Shown here piece after piece: positions 8,121 to 18,924 of a stretch of 64,000 bases of DNA. The stretch lies in assembly GCF_002742265.1 (NCBI RefSeq), contig NZ_MDGL01000186.1, positions 1-64,000 of the forward strand. Reading direction: 5' to 3'. The notes below the pieces were generated by a model. The model made no database searches. It saw only the letters and a program-made list of their open reading frames with translations, and had not been told where the DNA came from. The position numbers and the translations under genes were made by a program. The DNA comes from Maribacter sp. 4G9. Lineage in GTDB: Bacteria > Bacteroidota > Bacteroidia > Flavobacteriales > Flavobacteriaceae. Numbering within the stretch: position 1 is the stretch's first letter; each line of letters begins with the position of its first letter.

Positions 8121-9236
8121 ATGAGAAGACTGTTGGTCCAGTTTAGGAATAGTTCCTTCAGAAGTTTTGTTCGTAGACATGGAAAGTATGCCCCGATCTT
8201 ATTCTTTATTGGAGGTTTCATTTTTGATATGCTCACCCTAGGTAGGATAGACAGAACCTATGATTTGGTAATGCTATGTCTCCACATGACCAGTTTAAGT
8301 TTTGTCCTATATCTTTATAATGTAGTGGACGATGGTAAATGGAAAAACACCTTTTTGGAACGTTTTGAGGAATACTTCCCTTTAGCCATCCAATTCTTCT
8401 TCGGGGCGCTGTCCAGTGCCTATGTTATTTATTTTTCCAGGAGTGTATCCTTATCAAAAACAGTATCTTTTTTTTTAATTCTTGTCGCCCTCTTGGTTGC
8501 CAATGAATTTCTCAAGCAAAGGATTTCCAACAAGTATCTTCAGTTTAGCGTTTATTTTTTCTTAAGCTTCACGTTCTTCACCTTCATGATTCCTGTGGCG
8601 ATATCTAAAATGAGCCCCGCGTTATTTTATATTTCCGGAGGTATCAGTCTCCTTTGTACCTTGACCTTGATAATCCTAATTTACTTTTTAAGTCCAAGTA
8701 CCCGAAGTGAAATTCGGCTGGGAAGGCTTCTCGCCATTATCCTGAGTATTTATGTCATCATTAATCTATTCTACTATTTTAGGTTAATTCCGCCCGTTCC
8801 TTTGGCGCTGGACCAAGGTATCGTGGCCCATTATGTTGAAAAGACCGGGAACGAATACACCGTAACTTATGAAAAAAACGACTCTTTTATATTTTGGCGG
8901 GATCATAGACTCAAATTTGTATTTAGTCCGAACGAAAACGTATACATCTATTCCTCAATTTTTGCCCCTACCAATTTGGAGCAATCCATTATTCATAGGT
9001 GGAAATGGTTCAACGTAAAAACTTCCGAGTGGGAACTGATAGAGGATATAGGGTATGAGATAATAGGCGGTAGGGATGAAGGGTATAGGGGGTATACGTA
9101 TAAAAGTAATATTTGGGCAGGTGAATGGAAGGTGGAGGTCATAACCAATGAGGAATTGGTCTTGGGTGTAATCGATTTTGAAATATCCATCGATGAAAAT
9201 CTTGAACCTATAGAATTGGTAGAACGTAAATTTTAA
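8121..9236 (+). CDS. DUF2914 domain membrane protein, 371 aa
   Basis: Inner-membrane protein. A basic N-terminal tail is followed by about seven transmembrane helices (from around 22 to 225), then a roughly 130-residue domain starting about EYTVTYEKN with RWKWFNV, WELIEDIGY, GYRGYTYKS and GEWKVEVIT, which fits DUF2914, a beta-rich domain likely outside the cytoplasm. The molecular function is not known. TATCTTTA at 8096-8103 is a weak -7 candidate. The stop codon lies directly before the 3' end of rnpB on the other strand, so the two are convergent with almost no spacer. Confidence 0.75.
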   Translation: MRRLLVQFRNSSFRSFVRRHGKYAPILFFIGGFIFDMLTLGRIDRTYDLVMLCLHMTSLSFVLYLYNVVDDGKWKNTFLERFEEYFPLAIQFFFGALSSAYVIYFSRSVSLSKTVSFFLILVALLVANEFLKQRISNKYLQFSVYFFLSFTFFTFMIPVAISKMSPALFYISGGISLLCTLTLIILIYFLSPSTRSEIRLGRLLAIILSIYVIINLFYYFRLIPPVPLALDQGIVAHYVEKTGNEYTVTYEKNDSFIFWRDHRLKFVFSPNENVYIYSSIFAPTNLEQSIIHRWKWFNVKTSEWELIEDIGYEIIGGRDEGYRGYTYKSNIWAGEWKVEVITNEELVLGVIDFEISIDENLEPIELVERKF

Positions 9237-9238
9237 AA

Positions 9239-9540
9239 AAGCAGGCCGTAAGCCGGATTCTGTTTTCGTTGAACGAAACCTTATCATTTATCTAGACCAA
9301 AGGTTGCCCCATGGCTCCAACCGCCTACCCTTCGGCTCGGGCGTGCAGCCCTCAAACACCGATTTACATGACGTTTCACCGTATAGAGTTTACCTGATTT
9401 CACTACAGCCTAACTGTACTTGCTTTCTGTTGCACTTGTCCTCGCCTTTCGGCGGACGGGCGTTACCCGCTATACCGCACTATGGTGTCCGGACTTTCCT
9501 CCCCCAATATACATTGGCGGCGATAAGGTGGCCTGCTTGG
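9239..9540 (-). ncRNA. rnpB: RNase P RNA (class A)
   Basis: Catalytic RNA for tRNA 5' maturation. On the minus strand the RNA starts near 9538 with AAGCAGGCC, which pairs with GGCCTGCTT at the 3' end (P1 helix), followed by a T run. Conserved blocks are present in order: GAGGAAAGTCCGGAC (P4/CR I), GGTAACGCC, GCAACAGAAAGCAAGTA, GGTGAAACG, AAGGGTAGG, TAGATAAATGA and ACAGAATCCGGCTTA (CR V, P4 partner). Length near 300 is compact for class A (350-400). It is convergent with the DUF2914 gene and divergent from dnaX. A TACATTTG element lies just upstream. Confidence 0.97.
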
Positions 9541-9647: not shown

Positions 9648-11486
9648 TTGGAACCGTTTATTGTTTCTGCCCGAAAATACAGACCCCAGACCTTTAAGGA
9701 TGTCGTGGGGCAGCAGGCCATTACCAATACGTTACAAAATGCCATAGACAACAATCATTTGGCACAAGCGCTTCTCTTCTGTGGACCAAGGGGGGTTGGA
9801 AAAACGACCTGCGCCCGTATTTTGGCCAAACAGATAAACTCTGATGGCAGCGAACGTGAAGATGAGGATTTTGCTTTCAATATTTTTGAATTGGATGCGG
9901 CCTCCAACAACTCGGTGGACGATATCAGAAACCTGATCGATCAGGTACGTATACCACCTCAAGCGGGAAAATATAAGGTTTATATCATCGACGAGGTCCA
10001 TATGCTTTCCCAATCTGCATTTAATGCCTTTTTAAAAACCTTGGAGGAACCTCCAAAACATGCCATATTTATCTTGGCAACCACTGAAAAGCATAAGATC
10101 ATACCTACGATTCTGTCCAGGTGCCAAATATTTGACTTTAAAAGAATTACCGTAAACGACGCAGCGGAGTACTTAAAATATATCGCCGAAAATCAAGGTA
10201 TCGAAGCGGAGGGTGACGCCCTTCATATCATTGCGCAAAAGGCTGATGGAGCCATGCGGGACGCCCTTTCGATTTTTGACAGGGTCGTTAGTTTTTCGGG
10301 CAAGGAATTGACAAGAAAGGCGGTAACCGAAAATCTCAATGTTCTGGATTATGACACCTATTTTGAGGCGACCGACCTCATCATGAACCATGATATTCCC
10401 AGATTGCTGATTCTTTTCAACAAAACACTTTCCCTAGGCTTTGACGGCCACCATTTTATCGCCGGACTCGCCTCCCACTTTAGGGACTTAATGGTCTGTC
10501 AACATCAGGACACCATATCCCTATTGGAAGTTGGAGAGAATGCCCAAGAGAAATATAAGGAACAATCCAAAAAAACCTCCCCTGGGTTTCTTTTAAAGGG
10601 ACTGGATATTGCAAATGACTGCGACCTGAAATACAAGTCAAGCAAAAATCAGCGACTCCTAGTAGAACTTACCCTAATGAAACTTGCCTCTATCGACTTT
10701 GATGGAGAAAAAAAAAATCCTGAATCACTAGCCCTTCACAATAAAACTATTGATTTCATAGCCCCGGCCGAGTTTTACAAGAACATTCTAAGAAATCCCA
10801 AGGAAAAAGTACAAGAGGTAGTTTCCAAGAACGTAGATTCTGTTCCCGATGCGAAAAAGATGGATGAACCACCCATCGAAAAGGAGAAGAAAACAGAAGT
10901 AACGGAAAATCTGCCAATATCAAAGCCATCCCTAAAAGAGGAGGAACAAAAAAAGGACGAAACCAAAGAAGTACAAATTGTCCAAGAACCGCAGCCGCCT
11001 AGGATAGAAATAACAGCTCCCAAAAAACGGGTTTCAGGTCTATCACTTTCAAGTTTAAAGGCAAAGAGGGAACATGAACTCAACAAAATTGAGGTCATCA
11101 TAGATGAGGAAGATCTACCAAAAGATGATTTTTCAGAGGTTGATCTGCAAAAACATTGGTCGGATTTTGTGGATCAAATCGATAAAAAAGGGCAAAAAAT
11201 ACTGGCTTCCAACCTAAACACGGATAGTCCCAAGCTCGGTAAAGACTACAGTATTCATATTGAGCTCCCCAATAGTACGATGAAAAAAGAGATAGAGCGG
11301 GAGAGTTTTGAGCTTATGGGGTACCTAAGGAGCAAGCTAAACAATCATTTCATTCAATTAAATATAAAGGTGAATGAATCCAGTGCCAAAAAATTTGCCT
11401 TTACCCCAGAGGAGAAATATGAAAAGCTACGGGAAAAGAACCCGGCTATTGATTTGCTAAGGAAAGAATTTGATTTAGACCTTTAA
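9648..11486 (+). CDS. dnaX: DNA polymerase III subunit gamma/tau, 612 aa
   Basis: Clamp-loader ATPase of the replicative polymerase. The AAA+ module has VSARKYRPQTF at 6-16, Walker A GPRGVGKTT at 46-54, FELDAASNNSVDDIR, Walker B YIIDEVHML at 112-120, and LATTEKHKIIPTILSRC with the arginine finger. The four-cysteine zinc module normally found between Walker A and LDAASNN is absent: the segment NSDGSEREDEDFAF replaces it. The C-terminal part is charged and low in complexity (about 380-500), as in tau subunits. The start codon is TTG (MEPFIVSARKY), the only start that keeps the conserved N terminus. The 3' end overlaps the convergent TMEM220-family gene by 12 bases. Confidence 0.95.
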   Translation: MEPFIVSARKYRPQTFKDVVGQQAITNTLQNAIDNNHLAQALLFCGPRGVGKTTCARILAKQINSDGSEREDEDFAFNIFELDAASNNSVDDIRNLIDQVRIPPQAGKYKVYIIDEVHMLSQSAFNAFLKTLEEPPKHAIFILATTEKHKIIPTILSRCQIFDFKRITVNDAAEYLKYIAENQGIEAEGDALHIIAQKADGAMRDALSIFDRVVSFSGKELTRKAVTENLNVLDYDTYFEATDLIMNHDIPRLLILFNKTLSLGFDGHHFIAGLASHFRDLMVCQHQDTISLLEVGENAQEKYKEQSKKTSPGFLLKGLDIANDCDLKYKSSKNQRLLVELTLMKLASIDFDGEKKNPESLALHNKTIDFIAPAEFYKNILRNPKEKVQEVVSKNVDSVPDAKKMDEPPIEKEKKTEVTENLPISKPSLKEEEQKKDETKEVQIVQEPQPPRIEITAPKKRVSGLSLSSLKAKREHELNKIEVIIDEEDLPKDDFSEVDLQKHWSDFVDQIDKKGQKILASNLNTDSPKLGKDYSIHIELPNSTMKKEIERESFELMGYLRSKLNNHFIQLNIKVNESSAKKFAFTPEEKYEKLREKNPAIDLLRKEFDLDL

Positions 11487-11828
11487 TTTTTTTCGTAGCC
11501 TAACGGTATACAAGAACATTACAAGTGCGATAATCAATAATCCAAAAGCCTCACGACCCAATTCAACGGTTTCAATGGCACCATCTTCCAATCCAAAACC
11601 TTGAAAATCTGGAGGATACAAATACATAAAGCCAATAAAACAAACTGTTCCCAATATTAAGGGCACTACGGCCTTCAAACGATTTAAGGAGAAAAGTACG
11701 GAAATAATTGCCGCTATGGTATAAATCAAAATCCATAGGAACGAGTCTGGGTCATTATACTGGACAATGGCCCCCATTGCAAATAGTACGGCAAACAAAT
11801 ATCCAATCGTTTTAAAAAATAGATTCAT
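11475..11828 (-). CDS. Transmembrane 220 (TMEM220) family protein, 117 aa
   Basis: Small membrane protein with four predicted helices. The N-terminal FAVLFAMGAIVQYNDPDSFLW is the hallmark of the TMEM220 family, in which a Q-Y-N-D-P-D motif follows helix 1. The C terminus is basic (RLRKKLKV). No function is established. It starts 6 bases after the eboF stop on the same strand, so it is very likely the last gene of the ebo transcript and may act with that pathway as a membrane partner. It overlaps the 3' end of dnaX. Confidence 0.8.
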   Translation of the reverse strand: MNLFFKTIGYLFAVLFAMGAIVQYNDPDSFLWILIYTIAAIISVLFSLNRLKAVVPLILGTVCFIGFMYLYPPDFQGFGLEDGAIETVELGREAFGLLIIALVMFLYTVRLRKKLKV

Positions 11829-11834
11829 TGTAAA

Positions 11835-13208
11835 TCAGTTTAATACATGGTTTTTGATTAAATCACATACGGCAACGGCGTCAATTTCATTGGTATTAAC
11901 CATGTTGTTCTTATTGGTAATAAAAATTGGAAAATCTTCCCTGTCTTCCGTTTTTCTTCCGTGAGAGCCTTTAATTAGAGTAGCATCCAAGGGAATAATA
12001 TCCAAAACGGATCTAAAGCCCAGTTTCTTTTTTAACAGCTTCCAGCCCACTTTGGCCATTACTAGCTTATCCTTGGGGTCGGTCATCATTTCAACGGGAT
12101 CATATCCAGGTTTTTTATGGATGTCCACCATTCTGGCATAATCCGGTGCCACGGCATCATCCAACCAAAAATAATAGGTAAACCAGGAGTTGGCATCCGC
12201 TACCACTACCAAATCACCACATCTTTCGTGATTTAGGTGTTCGGCCTCCAGTTCATTTTTTATCAATACCCTTTCCACTCCAGGCACTTTGGATACTATT
12301 TTTTTTACTTCTTCCAGTTTACCCATATCCTTCACATAAATATGTGCCACTTGATGATCGGCCACAGCAAAGGCCTCACTAGCCCCAGTATCCAAAAGTT
12401 CCAATCCACGTTCCATGCGAACATGTATGTAGCCTTCCCTTCTTAATACCCTATTTAGGTGAATAGGGTTCTTTACATTGGTAATTCCGTATTCTGACAA
12501 CAACACGATATTGGCCCCCTGTTTTTCGTAATGATTTACCAGCTGTTTGACCACCCCATCAATTTCATTTAAATCCTTTGAAATTTTGTTGAAATCCAGT
12601 CCATAACGCTGCAAATTATAATCCAGATGTGGAAGGTAGATAAGGGTCAAGGTAGGATCGTATTTTTCATCGGTTTTAATAGCACCATTGGCAATCCATT
12701 TGGATGAATTAATGGTCGTACGTGGCCCCCAAAACTCGAACAAAGGAAAGGTACCCAGACTATTTTGAAGCTCGTCCCGCAATGTTGCAGGATAGGAATA
12801 AATATCCGGAATTTTCCGTCCATCAGCCAAATAATTGGGTCTTGGCGTAATGCTATAATCCACATTGGAATACATATTGTACCACCAAAAATGATTGGCG
12901 CAGCTAAAGGAAGCGTCCACTTCTTTAAGGGTATCCCATATTTTTGGTTGTTGTACTAACCTATTGGATTGTCTCCAAAATTTTACTTCCAACTCATCCT
13001 TAAAATACCAACCGTTTCCCACGATTCCATGTTCAGAAGGCCATTTTCCTGTAACGTAGGTCGACTGGACCGAACAGGTTACGGCAGGCAACATGGGTTT
13101 TATAAAGGTATACTCACCATTTTCAAAAAAAGATTTTATGAAGGGTGTATGCTCACCTATTAGGCGTTTGGTCAATCCAACAACATTGATGACGACTGTC
13201 TTTTGCAT
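11835..13208 (-). CDS. eboF: EboF: alkaline phosphatase/nucleotide pyrophosphatase-fold protein, 457 aa
   Basis: Last core member of the ebo cluster. The fold signature PAVTCSVQSTYVTG (41-54) aligns with the nucleophile loop of nucleotide pyrophosphatases, with T44 at the nucleophile position, followed by PSEHGIVGNGWYF. Compared with classical enzymes of the superfamily, several metal ligands differ: V10 instead of the first Asp, Q200 instead of the His four residues after D196, E239-Y240 instead of Asp-His. H285, H289 and H416 (GSHG) remain as possible ligands. Activity may therefore be unusual. It starts one base after eboE. In Nostoc punctiforme the ebo cluster is tied to moving scytonemin precursors to the periplasm. 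Confidence 0.88.
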   Translation of the reverse strand: MQKTVVINVVGLTKRLIGEHTPFIKSFFENGEYTFIKPMLPAVTCSVQSTYVTGKWPSEHGIVGNGWYFKDELEVKFWRQSNRLVQQPKIWDTLKEVDASFSCANHFWWYNMYSNVDYSITPRPNYLADGRKIPDIYSYPATLRDELQNSLGTFPLFEFWGPRTTINSSKWIANGAIKTDEKYDPTLTLIYLPHLDYNLQRYGLDFNKISKDLNEIDGVVKQLVNHYEKQGANIVLLSEYGITNVKNPIHLNRVLRREGYIHVRMERGLELLDTGASEAFAVADHQVAHIYVKDMGKLEEVKKIVSKVPGVERVLIKNELEAEHLNHERCGDLVVVADANSWFTYYFWLDDAVAPDYARMVDIHKKPGYDPVEMMTDPKDKLVMAKVGWKLLKKKLGFRSVLDIIPLDATLIKGSHGRKTEDREDFPIFITNKNNMVNTNEIDAVAVCDLIKNHVLN

Positions 13209-13209
13209 G

Positions 13210-14403
13210 CTATACGTGCGATTTTAACCATTCTATTTCACGGACGATGGAATGCGAAAGATCTTCCTTTAACCCTTCCGGTAGTACATCCCACGTATAG
13301 GTTTCTATTTCCAAATGCTCCGTCAACGAATCCTTTTTTAAATAATCCAAGGTATCCAAAATTTGATCTTGGGTAGAGTCCAACGCCCCAAATCGCTCCA
13401 AAAAGATAGGAACATGATAGTGGGCCCTTAGTTCGTCCACCTCCTTTTTTGCTTCCAATACGATAGGAAGATCATTATAGGTTTTTACCCTATCTCCTAT
13501 TTTTTCAGTTACCTGATGCAAATAGACCGGTTCGTTGAATTTTTCCAGAACCTTCCATACCTCCTCCCGATTCTTACATTTGAATAGAATCTTCAGTGCG
13601 GCACTCACCTGGATTTTCCCAACTTGGATACCCGCTTCCTTAAACTTAGCAAAGGTTTCACCGGGATGCTCATACGCCAGGGAAAAATGGCAAATGTCAT
13701 AACAAATGGTAATATATCGTTTTACCAATTCTTCCAATTGGGAAGCGTCCTTATCCAACGTTTGGGACAATTCCTGTTGTGCAATAGGAATCAGATAGTC
13801 TGAATAAAATGCTAGGACTTCATCCGTATTTTCCAAAAATCCATCAGGTTCCGGCTCAATGTCCAAATGGAGATAGGTCCCTGTCTTTTGTTCCAGTTCA
13901 AAAAGTTGCTTAGCGATTTGGACCATGTGTTCAGCACCTTTTTTAAAAGCTGAATCCTTTTCCATTTCCGAAGCAAACCAATGCTTATAACTAATGGGGG
14001 ATGTGGAAATTCCGCCATTGATTCCTATGGGAACCAATACCGACAATTGTTCAAACAAACGTTGGGTATATATCAAACGCTCCTTGGTGGTCCAATCCGG
14101 CGTGTGGACATCGTCCTTTACCCGTTCACGGTGAAAATTACCATAAGGAAACCCGTTCATGGTGAAAATATACACATCCTCCTCCTGCAACCAATTCTTG
14201 AATTCCGTCATATGGTTTCCCAAAGCGAGTTCCTCACTCGCCTTGTTTGAAAGCCGTAAACCAAGACCAAAGGGACCATCCGGTGAAACCGACTCCTTAA
14301 TACCTGGAACATGTTCCTTAATACTGGAGAAGGTGCTTTCCCAATCCTGACCGGGATGTATGTTCGTACAATAAGAAAGGTGGTATTTGTTTTTTATAAA
14401 CAT
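13210..14403 (-). CDS. eboE: EboE: metabolite traffic protein, TIM-barrel (xylose isomerase-like), 397 aa
   Basis: Belongs to the EboE family, which has the AP endonuclease 2/xylose isomerase TIM-barrel fold. Recognisable segments are LSYCTNIHPG at the N terminus, MNGFPYGNFHRERVK (about 101-115), TYLHLDIEPEPDGFLE, YDICHFSLAYEHPGE and the C-terminal YTWDVLPEGL. The acidic and histidine residues in HLDIEPE and DICH are likely metal ligands of the barrel. The substrate is unknown. It lies 11 bases after eboD and 1 base before eboF. Confidence 0.9.
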   Translation of the reverse strand: MFIKNKYHLSYCTNIHPGQDWESTFSSIKEHVPGIKESVSPDGPFGLGLRLSNKASEELALGNHMTEFKNWLQEEDVYIFTMNGFPYGNFHRERVKDDVHTPDWTTKERLIYTQRLFEQLSVLVPIGINGGISTSPISYKHWFASEMEKDSAFKKGAEHMVQIAKQLFELEQKTGTYLHLDIEPEPDGFLENTDEVLAFYSDYLIPIAQQELSQTLDKDASQLEELVKRYITICYDICHFSLAYEHPGETFAKFKEAGIQVGKIQVSAALKILFKCKNREEVWKVLEKFNEPVYLHQVTEKIGDRVKTYNDLPIVLEAKKEVDELRAHYHVPIFLERFGALDSTQDQILDTLDYLKKDSLTEHLEIETYTWDVLPEGLKEDLSHSIVREIEWLKSHV

Positions 14404-14414
14404 AAGGGGATTGG

Positions 14415-15575
14415 TTATTTAAGGGCCATCTGATGATTTAGCTGCTCAATGGACTGCTTCATTATCGACCTGTCAATTTCATGGACATCATGTTTCTTTC
14501 CCAATCCGGAAATTAATGTGATGGTCAATCTACCGCCCAAATGTTCCCTAAACTCCTCGATACCGGCCAAAAGTTGGTCCACTTCTTTTTCAGAATGCAG
14601 TGGCAAGGATAAATCAAAACCGATTTCCCTCATTACATCAAGAATGGTACTCAATTCTTCCTCTGAAATCAGCCCGATCAACTGCGCATAGGTAACGTCC
14701 AATGCTATTCCCTTCGCCACGGCCTCGCCATGTCTTAACTCGTAATTGGTCATAAACTCCAATTTGTGGGCCGCCCAATGACCAAAATCCAACGGCCTGG
14801 AGGAACCGGATTCAAAAGGATCTCCTCCCTGCGAGATATGCTGCATGTGCATTTCGGCACATTTATAAATGACGTACTGCATGGGTTCCAATTGCCTTTC
14901 CTTAAGGGATATGGCATGGTTTACAATGTATCCGAAGAATTCCTCGTCCTTGATCAAGGCAACTTTTATGGCCTCGGAGATTCCGGCTATCCAATCCCGT
15001 TGCTCCAAGGTCGCCAAGAAATCGCTATCGTTGATTATGGCATAGGGCGGGGCGAACGTTCCCAAGAAATTCTTCTTTTTAAAGATATTCACACTGTTTT
15101 TAACCCCTACGGCAGAATCGTTTTGGGATAGTACCGTGGTTGGAATCCTGATCAATTTAACGCCCCTATGGGCTATGGCGGCAGCATAGCCTACCATATC
15201 GATTACCGCACCCCCTCCGATTACCACCACAAAGGAGTGCCTGCAGATAGCATTTTCATTTATTCCTTTCAGCACAAGGTCAATATATTCTGCATGATTT
15301 TTGGACTGTTCCCCTCCGTCAATAACCAAAGTATCGGTACAGATCAGGTTCCCGGAATACAAACTGCAATAGGCGGAAATTTTGTTCAACAAATCTGGGT
15401 GGCTGTCCGCCACTCCATTGTCGACCACAAAAAACAATTTTACAGGCTCGTGGTCCTTGTACCCTTTTATAATATTGACGAACAGCGGGTTATCAACATG
15501 AAACAAATCCTTTGTAAAGTGGAGTTGGTACTCATATTGAACCGAAAACGACTGTTTGATAGGTTTTAATTCCAT
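14415..15575 (-). CDS. eboD: EboD: 3-dehydroquinate synthase-like protein, 386 aa
   Basis: Sugar-phosphate cyclase homologue. GGGAVIDMVGYAAAIAHRG is the NAD-binding motif, followed by RIPTTVLSQNDSAVGVKNSVN. Zinc ligands of dehydroquinate synthase appear conserved: Glu in GISEAIKVAL, His in DFGHWAAHKLE and His in LRHGEAVAKG. In ebo clusters this gene is not the shikimate-pathway enzyme but a paralogue whose product is unknown; a cyclitol-like ring is plausible. The start at 15575 (MELKPIKQSF) leaves 4 bases after eboC; an alternative Met at 15593 would overlap it by 14. EboC follows this pattern of tight spacing too. Confidence 0.9.
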   Translation of the reverse strand: MELKPIKQSFSVQYEYQLHFTKDLFHVDNPLFVNIIKGYKDHEPVKLFFVVDNGVADSHPDLLNKISAYCSLYSGNLICTDTLVIDGGEQSKNHAEYIDLVLKGINENAICRHSFVVVIGGGAVIDMVGYAAAIAHRGVKLIRIPTTVLSQNDSAVGVKNSVNIFKKKNFLGTFAPPYAIINDSDFLATLEQRDWIAGISEAIKVALIKDEEFFGYIVNHAISLKERQLEPMQYVIYKCAEMHMQHISQGGDPFESGSSRPLDFGHWAAHKLEFMTNYELRHGEAVAKGIALDVTYAQLIGLISEEELSTILDVMREIGFDLSLPLHSEKEVDQLLAGIEEFREHLGGRLTITLISGLGKKHDVHEIDRSIMKQSIEQLNHQMALK

Positions 15576-15579
15576 AGCA

Positions 15580-16479
15580 CTAGGTAACGGCAAAAATTCT
15601 TGAAAGTAACAAAGATAAAGGCAAAAGTAATAAAACCAGCAGTCCCAAATACCAGTGGGTAAAACCGGCTACCCAACAGGCATCCATAACAATGAGGGAT
15701 AAAACCCCGGCCATGACCGCCTTTTTAATATTCTGTGGGGAATTTTCCCTGTACGCGTTCAACAACGGTCTAAAAACCATAAAACCAAACAAGGCAATAA
15801 AGGGTAGGGACACCAAAATATGGTCTGTTTTCAGCGCAATGGTTATCGCGATAAAAGCCAATACCAAAACATATAATAAACCGGCGATCGCAATATGGTT
15901 TTTGTTATCACCATGGACCTCGCCCCTACTGATAAGCGTAATAGCGAAAATATAGATCATTGGTACCAAGGAAACCCACCACAGGTCCAATTGCCCCAAA
16001 ATGGACATTCCCAATAATAGGTTCAGTGCCCTGCAAATTCCCATGACCAATGGCCCAAAAAAGGAATGCTTTTTGGCCAAGGCATCGTAGACAAGGATTG
16101 AAAATATCAAAATGCCGGCAATACCTCCACTTACCTGATGGACCGAAAATGCCAAGTAAAGCCCAAAAACAAATAATAATAAACCCCATATAACAGCCTG
16201 ATTCTTTGGAATGAGTCCGCTGGGTATAGGTCTTTCCGGACGTTCGACAGCGTCCAATTTGGCATCAAAGACATCATTGAAAACCACGCCACCGGCATAT
16301 AGGAACACCGATGCAAATACAAGCGACAAAATACCCTGCCCATTCACCGAAAAAAATTCCGGAATTCCAACAATGGTAGAAAAAAGTGCCAAAGCAATAC
16401 CGGCAAAAATATCCGCTGCCGCGGTAGGTAAGTTGGCAGGTCTTGCCAACCTGGCAAAACCAATGATTTTTTTCACCAT
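15580..16479 (-). CDS. eboC: EboC: UbiA-like prenyltransferase, 299 aa
   Basis: Polytopic membrane prenyltransferase with about eight or nine helices. The first Asp-rich motif is N68-D69-VF-D72-AKLD76, followed by RPERPIPSG, the signature of UbiA-type enzymes that bind prenyl diphosphate through magnesium. The second Asp motif near YDALAKKHSFFG is less canonical. The N terminus FARLARPANLPTAAADI is typical of EboC. In the ebo cluster it is thought to attach a prenyl group to the cluster's small molecule, which would suit membrane transit; this is inference. It is one base from eboB. Confidence 0.92.
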   Translation of the reverse strand: MVKKIIGFARLARPANLPTAAADIFAGIALALFSTIVGIPEFFSVNGQGILSLVFASVFLYAGGVVFNDVFDAKLDAVERPERPIPSGLIPKNQAVIWGLLLFVFGLYLAFSVHQVSGGIAGILIFSILVYDALAKKHSFFGPLVMGICRALNLLLGMSILGQLDLWWVSLVPMIYIFAITLISRGEVHGDNKNHIAIAGLLYVLVLAFIAITIALKTDHILVSLPFIALFGFMVFRPLLNAYRENSPQNIKKAVMAGVLSLIVMDACWVAGFTHWYLGLLVLLLLPLSLLLSRIFAVT

Positions 16480-16480
16480 T

Positions 16481-17389
16481 CTAAGAGATTTGTTCGGAAT
16501 CTATCCGAGGTGTCTGCCCCCTTAAAACGCTATTATCATTAAAAAGTTGTGATTGGTCGATTCCTTTTGGCTTCAACCAGTGTTCCTCCTTCATTCGTCC
16601 GTTTTTGCTGAACGCGTCCAAGGCGTTTTGATAGCAGGTCTTCACAACATCTTCACGTGAAATACCTCTTTTCAGCATCAAGGAAGCTGTTTTGGGTACG
16701 GCCAATGGGTCACTTACGCCCCAATCTGCTGAGCTATCCACAATAATGTTGTCGCTACCAAACTTGCGTACCACTTCAACCATGCGTTCATTGCCCATTT
16801 TTGTTTTGGGATAAATGGTAAATGCAGCAATAAAGCCCCTATCCAGAACCTCTTTAACGGTTTCCTCGTTATTATGGTCAATTATGACATTGGCAGGGTC
16901 CAATCCGTGTTCCAAGCATACCTCCATACTCTTGATGGTACCGGCTTTCTTATCCCTATGCGGTGTATGTACCTGGACCGTCATATCCAATTCCTTGGCC
17001 AGATCCAACTGCATCCTAAAGTATTTGTCTTCGGCAGGGGTTTGGTCGTCATATCCAATTTCCCCAATGGCCACCACATTCTCTTTGTGTAGGTACAGGG
17101 GAAGTAGCTCCACAACCTGCTCCGCTAAAGCTTCATTGTTAGCCTCTTTTGAATTTAAACCAATCGTACAGTAGTGCTTTATACCAAACTGGCTTGCCCT
17201 AAAAGGCTCCCAACCCACCAGACTGCTGAAATAATCCTGAAAAGAACCCACCTGCGTCCTAGGTTGTCCCAACCAAAACGAGGGTTCTATTATGGCTACG
17301 ACTCCCGCTTGTTGCATGGCTTCATAATCATCTGTTGTTCTAGAGGACATGTGTACGTGCGGGTCAATAATCATCAATTTATCTTGCAT
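16481..17389 (-). CDS. eboB: EboB: TatD-like metal-dependent hydrolase, 302 aa
   Basis: Amidohydrolase-superfamily TIM barrel. DPHVHMSSRTTDDY near the N terminus carries the H-x-H metal motif; AIGEIGYDDQTPAE has the bridging Glu; VQVHTPHRDK gives the next His; VIIDHNNEETV and VDSSADWGVSDPLAVP give the last His and Asp ligands. TatD relatives are DNases, but EboB forms a separate branch of unknown substrate. The gene lies 6 bases after eboA and 1 base before eboC. Confidence 0.92.
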   Translation of the reverse strand: MQDKLMIIDPHVHMSSRTTDDYEAMQQAGVVAIIEPSFWLGQPRTQVGSFQDYFSSLVGWEPFRASQFGIKHYCTIGLNSKEANNEALAEQVVELLPLYLHKENVVAIGEIGYDDQTPAEDKYFRMQLDLAKELDMTVQVHTPHRDKKAGTIKSMEVCLEHGLDPANVIIDHNNEETVKEVLDRGFIAAFTIYPKTKMGNERMVEVVRKFGSDNIIVDSSADWGVSDPLAVPKTASLMLKRGISREDVVKTCYQNALDAFSKNGRMKEEHWLKPKGIDQSQLFNDNSVLRGQTPRIDSEQIS

Positions 17390-17395
17390 TTTCTT

Positions 17396-18244
17396 TTAAT
17401 TCTTTAAGTTATTCCAAGTTAGTGTTCCTTCTTCTATCTGCTGATTCAAGTCGGGTCTGCGATGCAGGATTTCCATGGCCTCGGCACTATCGGAATGATA
17501 ACAGCACAAGGCTCCCGCCCTATTCTCGATCAGGTCCCCACTTTCCAATAAGCGTTCCATATCCTTTAGCAAAATCGGATTCAGAAACCTTGCGACCGGG
17601 CGCCAGAACATGGGGTCTATCTTCCTGGAGGCCGCCCATCGTTCGTGGGCGTAATCTGAAATGATTCTGGCTAAATCCACATTGGCACGTTCGTCTACAG
17701 ACGGTATTTTCGAAAGATCTCTCTCCATAAACGCCGCCTTTAGGTACATCTGGTTCCATTGCTGGTCATTGAAGTACTTGGCCGGATAGGGGTTGTTCAA
17801 GGTAATGGCATCAAAAATGACCGATATATTTGTTCTAAGGGCTTCTACTGCCGTAAACTTGAACATTTCAGGATACGGCAAAAGGTCCAGAAACTTAAGA
17901 AAGGTCTCAAGTTCCGTAATATCAGCAACCTGAATGATATTGGCCACTTTGGACCCGTAGAAATCGGTATCGATTTCCATTACCTTCATAAGCAGGTAAA
18001 TCCTAGCTACCTCCAAAAGGTTCGCATCACGCTCGGTTAAAAAGTTCAATACTTCGTCATCCGCACTATCTATTTGTAATTTGGTGTTTTTCCCAAATTT
18101 TGCGGCCAATAAACTATAGGACATGAAAAAGTCACGTACGGATTTGTCCGCTTCCAGTTTTTGTGTTTTTTCAGTCAGCCATTCCAATGACCCTGGATCC
18201 GCTTGGGCCCCAAGCGCTTCCTTAATCCGTTCGCTTACCTGCAT
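17396..18244 (-). CDS. eboA: EboA domain protein, 282 aa
   Basis: First gene of the ebo operon. The largely helical protein contains blocks typical of EboA, such as LNNPYPAKYFNDQQWNQMYLKAAFM, ERDLSKIPSVDERAN and YAHERWAASRKIDPMFWRPVARFL, with no recognised catalytic motif. Its function is unknown. The start at 18244 (MQVSERIKEALG) is chosen because a TATTTTTG element at 18273-18280 would put transcription start near 18268, downstream of the alternative Met at 18295. It is divergent from miaE. Confidence 0.88.
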   Translation of the reverse strand: MQVSERIKEALGAQADPGSLEWLTEKTQKLEADKSVRDFFMSYSLLAAKFGKNTKLQIDSADDEVLNFLTERDANLLEVARIYLLMKVMEIDTDFYGSKVANIIQVADITELETFLKFLDLLPYPEMFKFTAVEALRTNISVIFDAITLNNPYPAKYFNDQQWNQMYLKAAFMERDLSKIPSVDERANVDLARIISDYAHERWAASRKIDPMFWRPVARFLNPILLKDMERLLESGDLIENRAGALCCYHSDSAEAMEILHRRPDLNQQIEEGTLTWNNLKN

Positions 18245-18272
18245 TATTTGTATAATCTTATTTCTCCTTTCC

Positions 18273-18280
18273 CAAAAATA
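18273..18280 (-). promoter_or_regulatory. -7 element TATTTTTG of the ebo operon
   Basis: TATTTTTG on the minus strand fits TAnnTTTG and would give a leader of about 24 bases to the eboA ATG at 18244. The nearest upstream TTG is 14 bases away, shorter than the usual 17-23 spacing. Confidence 0.55.
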
Positions 18281-18302
18281 ATTATTAAAACCCACAAAGC
18301 CC

Positions 18303-18310
18303 TATTTTTG
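18303..18310 (+). promoter_or_regulatory. -7 element TATTTTTG of miaE
   Basis: TATTTTTG on the plus strand fits the consensus and predicts a leader of about 25 bases to the ATG at 18340. Together with the element at 18273-18280 it forms a divergent promoter pair between eboA and miaE. Confidence 0.6.
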
Positions 18311-18339
18311 CATCGCAAACAAGGTTAATAAGCGTTAAA

Positions 18340-18924
18340 ATGATGTTAGGATTAAAATTGCCTACCGATCCAAGATGGGTAAATATCGTGGAAAAAAATA
18401 TTGATGAAATTTTGACGGACCATGCATATTGTGAACAAAAGGCCGCCAGTACGGCCATATCCTTGATCGTTTCCTTTCCGGAATATACAGAATTGGTCGA
18501 AGAAATGGTAGCATTATCCCGGGAAGAAATGGGGCACTTTAAAATGGTACACGACCTAATTTTGGAACGTGGGCAAAAACTAGGGAGGGATAGAAAGGAC
18601 GAATATGTTTTGGAACTGCTCAAATTTTTTCCAAAAGGTGGAAGCCGAACCACTCAATTGATACACCGTCTTTTGTATGCCGCCCTCATTGAGGCCCGAA
18701 GCTGTGAACGGTTTAGACTATTGTCCGAAGAACTACCCGATAAAAAATTGGCCGATTTCTATCACAAACTCATGATCAGCGAAGCAGGGCATTATACCAT
18801 GTTCCTAAAATTCGCCCGAAAATATGGCGACAGAAAAGAGGTGGACCAAAAATGGCAGGCCTTATTGGAATATGAAGCTGAAATCATGAAAAATCTCAGC
18901 AAATCAGAAAAGGTACATGGGTAA
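18340..18924 (+). CDS. miaE: tRNA-(ms2io6A) hydroxylase MiaE, 194 aa
   Basis: Non-haem diiron monooxygenase that hydroxylates the isopentenyl group of ms2i6A37 in tRNAs reading UNN codons. It is a four-helix ferritin-like protein with iron ligands in EQKAAS, SREEMGHFKM (E-x-x-H), EARSCER and ISEAGHYTM (E-x-x-H). The N-terminal LPTDPRWV and the length near 195 match the family. It is divergent from the ebo operon and ends 13 bases before the convergent ppk1. Confidence 0.93.
   Translation: MMLGLKLPTDPRWVNIVEKNIDEILTDHAYCEQKAASTAISLIVSFPEYTELVEEMVALSREEMGHFKMVHDLILERGQKLGRDRKDEYVLELLKFFPKGGSRTTQLIHRLLYAALIEARSCERFRLLSEELPDKKLADFYHKLMISEAGHYTMFLKFARKYGDRKEVDQKWQALLEYEAEIMKNLSKSEKVHG

Follow-up and report, generated by a model that had tools for sequence, protein, structure and literature searches.

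Introduction

Clusters of ebo genes are scattered over bacterial phyla and plastids, and the published models of their function that we found contain no membrane-crossing part of their own. Here, we describe an ebo locus of the flavobacterium Maribacter sp. 4G9, in which a gene for a small membrane protein of the TMEM220 family follows the ebo genes. The DNA analyzed, hereafter the window, comprises positions 1 to 64,000 of the forward strand of contig NZ_MDGL01000186.1 (RefSeq assembly GCF_002742265.1). The gene order eboABCDEF is itself already known for Bacteroidetes. It was described as typical of this group by Yurchenko et al. (2016; PMC5133447), who treated it together with the eustigmatophyte plastid operons and put forward a prenylated cyclitol as the product. 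The operon of the window resembles this type in its six genes, their order, and their family assignments. The same paper treats EboF as a putative hydrolase, whereas the active site of EboF is altered here. The terms "TMEM220", "inositol", and "active site" are absent from its main text, to which that search was confined (the supplementary tables lay outside it).

In Nostoc punctiforme, ebo mutants share a phenotype in which the scytonemin monomer is retained in the cytoplasm, and the transfer of a small molecule to the periplasm, perhaps by a lipid carrier, was proposed (Klicki et al. 2018; PMC6282210). The published model of a lipid carrier for small-molecule export borrows an existing capsule ABC permease. 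Homologues of EboA, B, C, E, and F are common to both loci, but in the window eboD lies inside the operon and the TMEM220 membrane protein is added. No scytonemin-related label was found among the window's open reading frames (ORFs) scanned with Pfam and NCBIfam. The closest studied relative that we found is the UbiA-297/ebo region of Maribacter sp. MS6, with a marine flavobacterial EboC encoded in an ebo cluster; there, EboC alone was assayed, on aromatic acceptors, and the Results section lists eboA-E with no mention of TMEM220 (PMC9235831). The EDB cluster of Pseudomonas fluorescens NZI7 contains a full ebo cluster (PMC6282210) and differs by additional genes and by its link to indoles that repel Caenorhabditis elegans; in Escherichia coli, it gave isoindoles and two indoles that are moderately repellent to C. 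elegans, as summarized in a review (PMC9655573). A full-text search found no paper with both TMEM220 and "Flavobacteri-"; most subscription papers and supplements lay outside this search, and earlier notice is possible. Three observations go beyond the published ebo work that we found: the link with TMEM220, the pattern of the EboF site, and actinobacterial clusters with an inositol-phosphate synthase and without EboD.

A TMEM220-family gene accompanies the ebo operon

An initial annotation, made from the DNA letters alone, had assigned the interval 11475-18244 to six genes, a complete eboA-F series in order with gaps of 1-11 bases. Coordinates and family models bear this out for the ebo genes, which lie in that order on the minus strand (11835-18244) with intergenic gaps of 6, 1, 4, 11, and 1 bases (the eboC-eboD gap of 4 bases takes the ATG at 15575 as the start of eboD). 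This spacing lends support to the view that eboA-F act together. The count of six genes does not stand. The interval also holds a co-directional ORF that the annotation left unnamed; it starts 6 bases beyond eboF, encodes 117 amino acids, and belongs to the TMEM220 family (PF15071), which includes human TMEM220. The locus is thus a packed run of seven genes on the minus strand (11475-18244; Table 1).

When the six Ebo proteins were compared with family profiles, EboA (domain model only), EboC, and EboE passed Ebo-named NCBIfam models; the narrower EboA model NF035937 gave 183.8 bits, below its cut-off of 320. No Ebo-named NCBIfam model was returned for EboB, EboD, and EboF, and these three proteins are therefore identified by homology and operon position, as in relatives, in which a comparison of neighborhoods recovered the same ABCDEF order.

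TMEM220 was found to be associated with ebo within the sampled Bacteroidota. Among 397 Flavobacteriaceae genomes, it was present in 64 of the 70 that carry EboE and in 32 of the 327 that do not (one of these 96 TMEM220 genomes scores below the curated cut-off). Counted by genus, the figures were 44/48 and 22/189. The corresponding Fisher p values, which ignore shared ancestry, were 3e-42 for genomes and 1e-26 for genera. A draw of 296 Bacteroidota genomes, compared by hand, gave 18/24 with EboE and 22/272 without (one of the 40 TMEM220 genomes below the curated cut-off). No true EboF was found in any of the 32 TMEM220-only Flavobacteriaceae genomes. In 56 of the 70 EboE-positive Flavobacteriaceae, TMEM220 and eboE shared a strand and were no more than 8 kb apart (TMEM220 downstream in 49, upstream in 7); in 8 the gene was located elsewhere, and 6 lacked it. 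Three genomes without TMEM220 (G646, G865, and G871) have only eboE left between dnaX and the miaE-like gene; TMEM220 is therefore absent where the ebo operon itself has decayed. The lone, still open eboE of these genomes (loci L292, L295, and L296) suggests a remnant or an independent role. In another genome in which TMEM220 was not found (G920), the contig stops where eboF ends, as read from locus L128, which equals in length the genome's locus L297; the latter was under the length filter of the neighborhood check.

The position of TMEM220 was surveyed in a set of named EboE loci, the best 80 of 567 confirmed ones, with TMEM220 matches below 50 bits not counted. The gene was found inside 42 of the 80 loci; when only the 61 loci flanked by 3 kb or more on each side were counted, 36 contained it. 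Distances were measured between open frames and are hence approximate. Most of the 42 genes lay within 200 bases of the ebo genes on the same strand, either downstream (29) or upstream (8); the others were downstream and convergent within 200 bases (2), upstream and divergent at 405 and 453 bases (2), or downstream in opposite orientation at 2.2 kb (1). In 33 of the other 38 genomes TMEM220 was present elsewhere, which brings the carriers to 75 of 80; the query gave 34 of 39 genomes, one of which (G302) is already counted among those with an adjacent copy. Several of the 38 loci end at contig ends, so "elsewhere" may hide some TMEM220 neighbors. Other places and orientations beside ebo were found in Mucilaginibacter, Daejeonella, Salegentibacter, Sporocytophaga, Chitinophaga, and two metagenome-assembled genomes (MAGs) of Cyclobacteriaceae/Flammeovirgaceae. 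Two loci have two TMEM220-like genes upstream of eboA, one of which is short (L303, 2680-5460) or several kb away (L132, 406-5900).

On a tree of 81 EboE rows (TMEM220 matches below 85 bits not included), a minimum of 4 changes is needed between the TMEM220 arrangements, and of 16 when all states are counted. This tree came from a quick search, with 20 of its 78 inner branches drawn open. As judged from these sequences, the TMEM220-ebo link appears to have arisen more than once. We read TMEM220 as an unrecognized ebo component.

Features of the TMEM220 protein

The alignments used for structure prediction combined the window sequence with 36 of the 42 TMEM220 or 50 of the 67 EboA locus sequences. 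AlphaFold2 predicted four helices for the TMEM220 protein of the window (residues 3-25, 29-47, 54-70, and 85-116; pLDDT 91.3), and EboA was predicted to be all-helical, possibly as a HEAT/ARM-like solenoid. Across the 37 ebo-linked TMEM220 sequences, residues F16, N25, D26, D28, W32, E89, R92, E93, and G96 were invariant. A broader alignment of 31 rows, which includes copies away from ebo and counts the window protein twice, has N25, D26, W32, E89, R92, E93, and G96 in 31/31 and D28 in 29. The protein thus has the features of its family, namely four predicted transmembrane helices and the cluster ND.D..W plus E..RE..G, the latter taken from our own alignments.

By helix order, both conserved segments lie on one face of the membrane. 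The opposite face is richer in Lys and Arg in 34 of the 37 sequences, from which we infer, by the positive-inside rule, that the conserved cluster faces the periplasm. Literature searches found no published bacterial function for TMEM220. The human protein is reported to reside in the Golgi, with knock-down disrupting the Golgi and protein secretion (PMC6979480); any relation between this role and ebo is speculation.

The remodeled active site of EboF

We take the two-metal site of the PF01663 phosphodiesterases and nucleotide pyrophosphatases to consist of D, T, D, H, D, H, and H. For alignment with EboF, we used two PF01663 proteins from its own genome plus the product of a gene neighboring the ebo run at locus L067. 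In EboF, T44 and D196 are kept, whereas three ligands are replaced (H by Q200, D by E239, and H by Y240). At both ends, where the aligner misplaced the motifs, matching them by eye puts V10 in the position of the first D and shows the last H retained as H416. An alignment with phosphonoacetate hydrolase agrees at T44 and at E239-Y240. Four of the seven canonical metal positions are thus altered (V10, Q200, E239, and Y240), and EboF does not have the two-metal phosphodiesterase site. The gene product at L067 (711-2078), encoded ~600 bases upstream of a TMEM220-eboABCDEF run, is a canonical-looking PF01663-type protein with PDxxGH and DHG motifs.

Residues V10, T44, D196, Q200, E239, Y240, D284, H285, and H289 were found in 114 of 114 aligned EboF rows. 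H364 and H416 were present in every row that has a residue there; the eleven-residue pattern was complete in 112 rows and gapped in the two others. Compared to the canonical site, D284, H285, H289, and H364 are additional invariant residues. The rows come from Bacteroidota, Deinococcota, Pseudomonadota, Actinomycetota, and Gemmatimonadota, with some genomes represented twice; ORFs scoring no more than 500 bits (no more than 200 bits for plasmid loci) were excluded from this count. On these residues, EboF would not be a standard phosphodiesterase, and the label "phosphodiesterase" is probably incorrect for EboF proteins. The initial annotation had counted "hydrolases", in the plural, within the cluster; the plural is doubtful because most of the EboF phosphodiesterase metal site is changed.

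EboF may instead be a catalytically dead phosphodiesterase that serves as a binding or scaffold subunit, an option we take seriously even though we lean somewhat away from it. The uniform V10, Q200, E239, and Y240 at ligand positions speak for it. However, more drift would be expected of a dead enzyme: all rows share the replacements, T44 remains as the nucleophile, a metal could still be held by E239, and D284, H285, H289, and H364 have become fixed as well. The fixed replacements argue for new chemistry rather than decay, and a new single-metal or metal-free chemistry fits the pattern at least equally well. EboF may nevertheless have a binding role.

EboD and the nature of the ebo product

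EboD residues are numbered here from the residue after the initiator Met. Where the solved dehydroquinate synthases 6lk2 and 3okf have a Lys, the Asn of the LN.GH motif, and a Lys-Lys pair, EboD carries H242, D262, and R342-E343, respectively; we take these columns to be substrate positions of dehydroquinate synthases. D262 and H344 are shared with the valiolone synthase ValA (4p53). H242, D262, E343, and H344 were invariant in 23/23 EboD sequences, and H242, D262, and H344 also in 6/6 plasmid-borne ones. The presumed metal ligands E200, H265, and H281 were invariant in both sets. A second PF01761 gene elsewhere in the genome scores better than eboD (143.9 vs 122 bits). By these residues, EboD is probably a sugar-phosphate cyclase and not a dehydroquinate synthase.

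Of the other enzymes, EboC has the Asp-rich prenyl-diphosphate motif, with N68, D69, D72, and D76 invariant in 22/22. In EboB, H11, H13, E110, H141, H172, and D222 were invariant in 22/22 and in 8/8 plasmid-borne sequences; presumably these residues are the metal ligands of the TatD/amidohydrolase-like family.

Plasmid-borne ebo loci gave comparative evidence on the product. In those of Streptomyces, Nonomuraea, and Embleya, the cluster contains an inositol-3-phosphate synthase, an SCO3242-type prenyltransferase, and a sugar-phosphate isomerase. Six of the seven actinobacterial loci have the synthase without EboD, and the seventh has neither (one synthase was checked with Pfam). The Gemmatirosa plasmid ebo cluster (L242, 4111-11230) likewise has an inositol-phosphate synthase and an isomerase, with EboD and EboA not detected. 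By listed coordinates, an inositol-phosphate synthase lies within 5 kb in 23 of 24 listed actinobacterial EboE records, many of which are near-duplicates; the listed plasmid matches comprised all but 7 of 47 EboE records and all but 19 of 79 inositol-phosphate-synthase records. A cyclitol core is well argued because a cyclase of a different family sits in the same cluster; this comparison narrows the ebo product to the cyclitol class and supports a putative cyclitol core. The initial annotation had proposed a "prenylated cyclitol-like compound" as an inference of its own. The cyclitol core gains comparative support here, and the idea itself was put forward as a hypothesis by Yurchenko et al. 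(2016). Full-text literature searches found no paper that mentions eboC, inositol, and Streptomyces together. Two of the Streptomyces clusters have other genes nearby. At L236 (2993-4192 and 13121-14599), these encode a multicopper oxidase and a "ScyD/ScyE family protein"; at L238 (9558-13990), they encode an ABC transporter and a phosphopantetheinyl transferase. Locus L239, a short duplicate, was set aside.

A different product, a prenylated aromatic compound derived from quinoline or indole, would require EboC to act on acceptors resembling 8-hydroxyquinoline-2-carboxylate (8-HQA) or derived from tryptophan, with EboD as a cryptic enzyme of an aromatic pathway. 8-HQA and quinaldic acid serve as farnesyl acceptors of Maribacter EboC, and 8-HQA also of its Zobellia and Algoriphagus homologues (PMC9235831); the EDB cluster is tied to indoles, as noted above, and scytonemin is an indole alkaloid (PMC8879130). 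All 14 acceptors tried on EboC were, however, aromatic (PMC9235831). The residues at H242, D262, and R342-E343 differ from those of dehydroquinate synthases, D262 and H344 agree with ValA, and the actinobacterial clusters pair an inositol-phosphate synthase with the absence of EboD. We consider an aromatic product unlikely, though deserving of attention.

A tentative mechanism and its alternatives

We propose a seven-gene ebo operon at this locus, consisting of eboABCDEF and TMEM220, and we give the explanation that follows, taken as a whole, a little less than an even chance of being right. EboD would form a cyclitol by cyclizing a sugar phosphate (sedoheptulose 7-phosphate is the probable substrate), and EboE and EboB may trim or isomerize this cyclitol. 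EboC, as a membrane enzyme, would attach a prenyl chain to give a membrane-anchored cyclitol lipid. EboF could bind or convert a phosphorylated intermediate, using a mechanism different from two-metal phosphodiester hydrolysis, and EboA would be a helical scaffold. TMEM220 would reside in the inner membrane, with its invariant N-D-D-W/E-R-E-G cluster in the periplasm, where it may receive, flip, or dock the lipid or its cargo. It would thereby supply a dedicated membrane step to the published lipid-carrier model. TMEM220 is a testable candidate for the membrane-crossing part of ebo in Bacteroidota, and the link connects a poorly understood human gene with a bacterial pathway amenable to knock-out.

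Several observations weigh against this proposal. One genome (G811) has a complete eboA-F without TMEM220, and in another without TMEM220 (G840), the 14 kb retrieved contain eboB-F and show no eboA. Six of the 24 EboE-positive genomes of the Bacteroidota draw are also without TMEM220. Among the 327 Flavobacteriaceae genomes lacking EboE, 32 carry TMEM220, which must therefore serve, or once have served, some other function. The gene was not found in the stretches retrieved around 16 plasmid-borne ebo loci (15 from outside Bacteroidota), and a plasmid search with the TMEM220 protein of the window found no copy; TMEM220 may therefore be a speciality of Bacteroidota, although this search did not reach the chromosomes of other phyla. 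Its structure matches point to no function, the nearest (an Fc receptor chain and VKOR) being no better than unrelated helical bundles. Flavobacterial EboC prefers quinoline acids in vitro, with no cyclitol among the substrates tried (PMC9235831). Finally, the downstream same-strand arrangement accounts for 30 of the 43 adjacent tree rows (window included), all inside one 38-row clade.

A bolder version of the proposal would have TMEM220, as the ebo membrane component of Bacteroidota, take or flip the prenylated cyclitol at the periplasmic face, and EboF represent a new type of alkaline-phosphatase-fold enzyme. The eukaryotic TMEM220 proteins, human Golgi TMEM220 among them, would then be remote kin acting comparably on a lipid-linked or isoprenoid cyclitol-like compound of the secretory pathway. 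We regard this combination as rather unlikely.

It is improbable that the locus is an ordinary ABCDEF ebo operon of Bacteroidetes beside an irrelevant flanking gene, with nothing new to it. Order and families match the published type (PMC5133447), and a Maribacter ebo region has been published (PMC9235831), but the TMEM220 association is strong, the arrangements recur, and TMEM220 goes unmentioned in the main text of the former paper and in the Results of the latter. Least probable of all, in our judgment, is that TMEM220 is a syntenic passenger, an unrelated small membrane gene kept beside ebo by descent in the dnaX-miaE neighborhood of Flavobacteriaceae: the single-clade distribution of the commonest arrangement and the frequent conservation of dnaX, miaE, and ppk genes around ebo fit such a passenger, but TMEM220 also adjoins ebo in other places and orientations in several genera and two MAGs, it co-occurs with ebo from a distance in 33 of the 38 ebo genomes without a local copy (some loci being cut by contig ends), which is unlike the behavior expected of a passenger, and around 38 TMEM220 genes away from ebo no other family was found in more than 6 loci.

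Genomic context of the locus

Table 1. Coordinates of the seven-gene run and its flanking features in the window
Feature	Position	Strand	Assignment and evidence
dnaX, convergent, not part of ebo; 12-base overlap with the end of the TMEM220 gene	9648..11486	+	NF011531 722.8 bits (cut-off 685)
TMEM220-family gene, proposed ebo component	11475..11828	-	PF15071 73.6 bits (cut-off 27), profile 1-99/100
eboF	11835..13208	-	Alkaline-phosphatase/NPP fold, remodeled active site; PF01663 E 2e-62
eboE	13210..14403	-	Xylose-isomerase-like TIM-barrel protein; NF035939 480.8 bits (cut-off 250)
eboD	14415..15575	-	Sugar-phosphate cyclase (probable); PF01761; NF004852 "3-dehydroquinate synthase" 547.4 bits (cut-off 333)
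eboC	15580..16479	-	UbiA-superfamily membrane prenyltransferase; NF035940 367.5 bits (cut-off 250)
eboB	16481..17389	-	TatD/amidohydrolase-like; PF01026 E 3e-19
eboA	17396..18244	-	EboA domain NF035938 151.1 bits (cut-off 50); predicted all-helical, possibly a HEAT/ARM-like solenoid
Divergent intergenic region of 95 bases between eboA and the miaE-like gene; presumed promoter region	18245..18339	.	Coordinates
miaE-like gene, not part of ebo	18340..18924	+	PF06175 E 6e-44; NCBIfam MiaE model below cut-off (101 vs 320)

The miaE-like gene is a frequent ebo neighbor and occupies the same position in many related Flavobacteriaceae. A divergent promoter had been placed at the front of the operon. 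The divergent gap is there, but the promoter gained no support from a pattern scan: a Bacteroides-type promoter pattern had 0 matches in the 95-base gap, and its 5 matches in the whole window, against 3.9 expected, are at chance level. The initial annotation also held that no further secondary-metabolite gene lies nearby, in agreement with a Pfam scan of 38 further window ORFs (smaller and overlapping ORFs left out), among which none of the typical kind was found. It took this to mean that the cluster may suffice for a small molecule of its own.

A gene for RNase P RNA (RF00010, 205.5 bits) is located directly upstream of dnaX, at 9234-9539 on the minus strand. Within the surveyed set of named loci, the closest named EboE relative is that of Maribacter litopenaei (83%). 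At this locus (L094, 6105-14710), eboA, eboF, and dnaX are each split over several frames, perhaps by sequencing indels. At another surveyed locus (L079, 5561-8661; genome G179), EboE matches were found in two frames, which are overlapped by the eboF frame.

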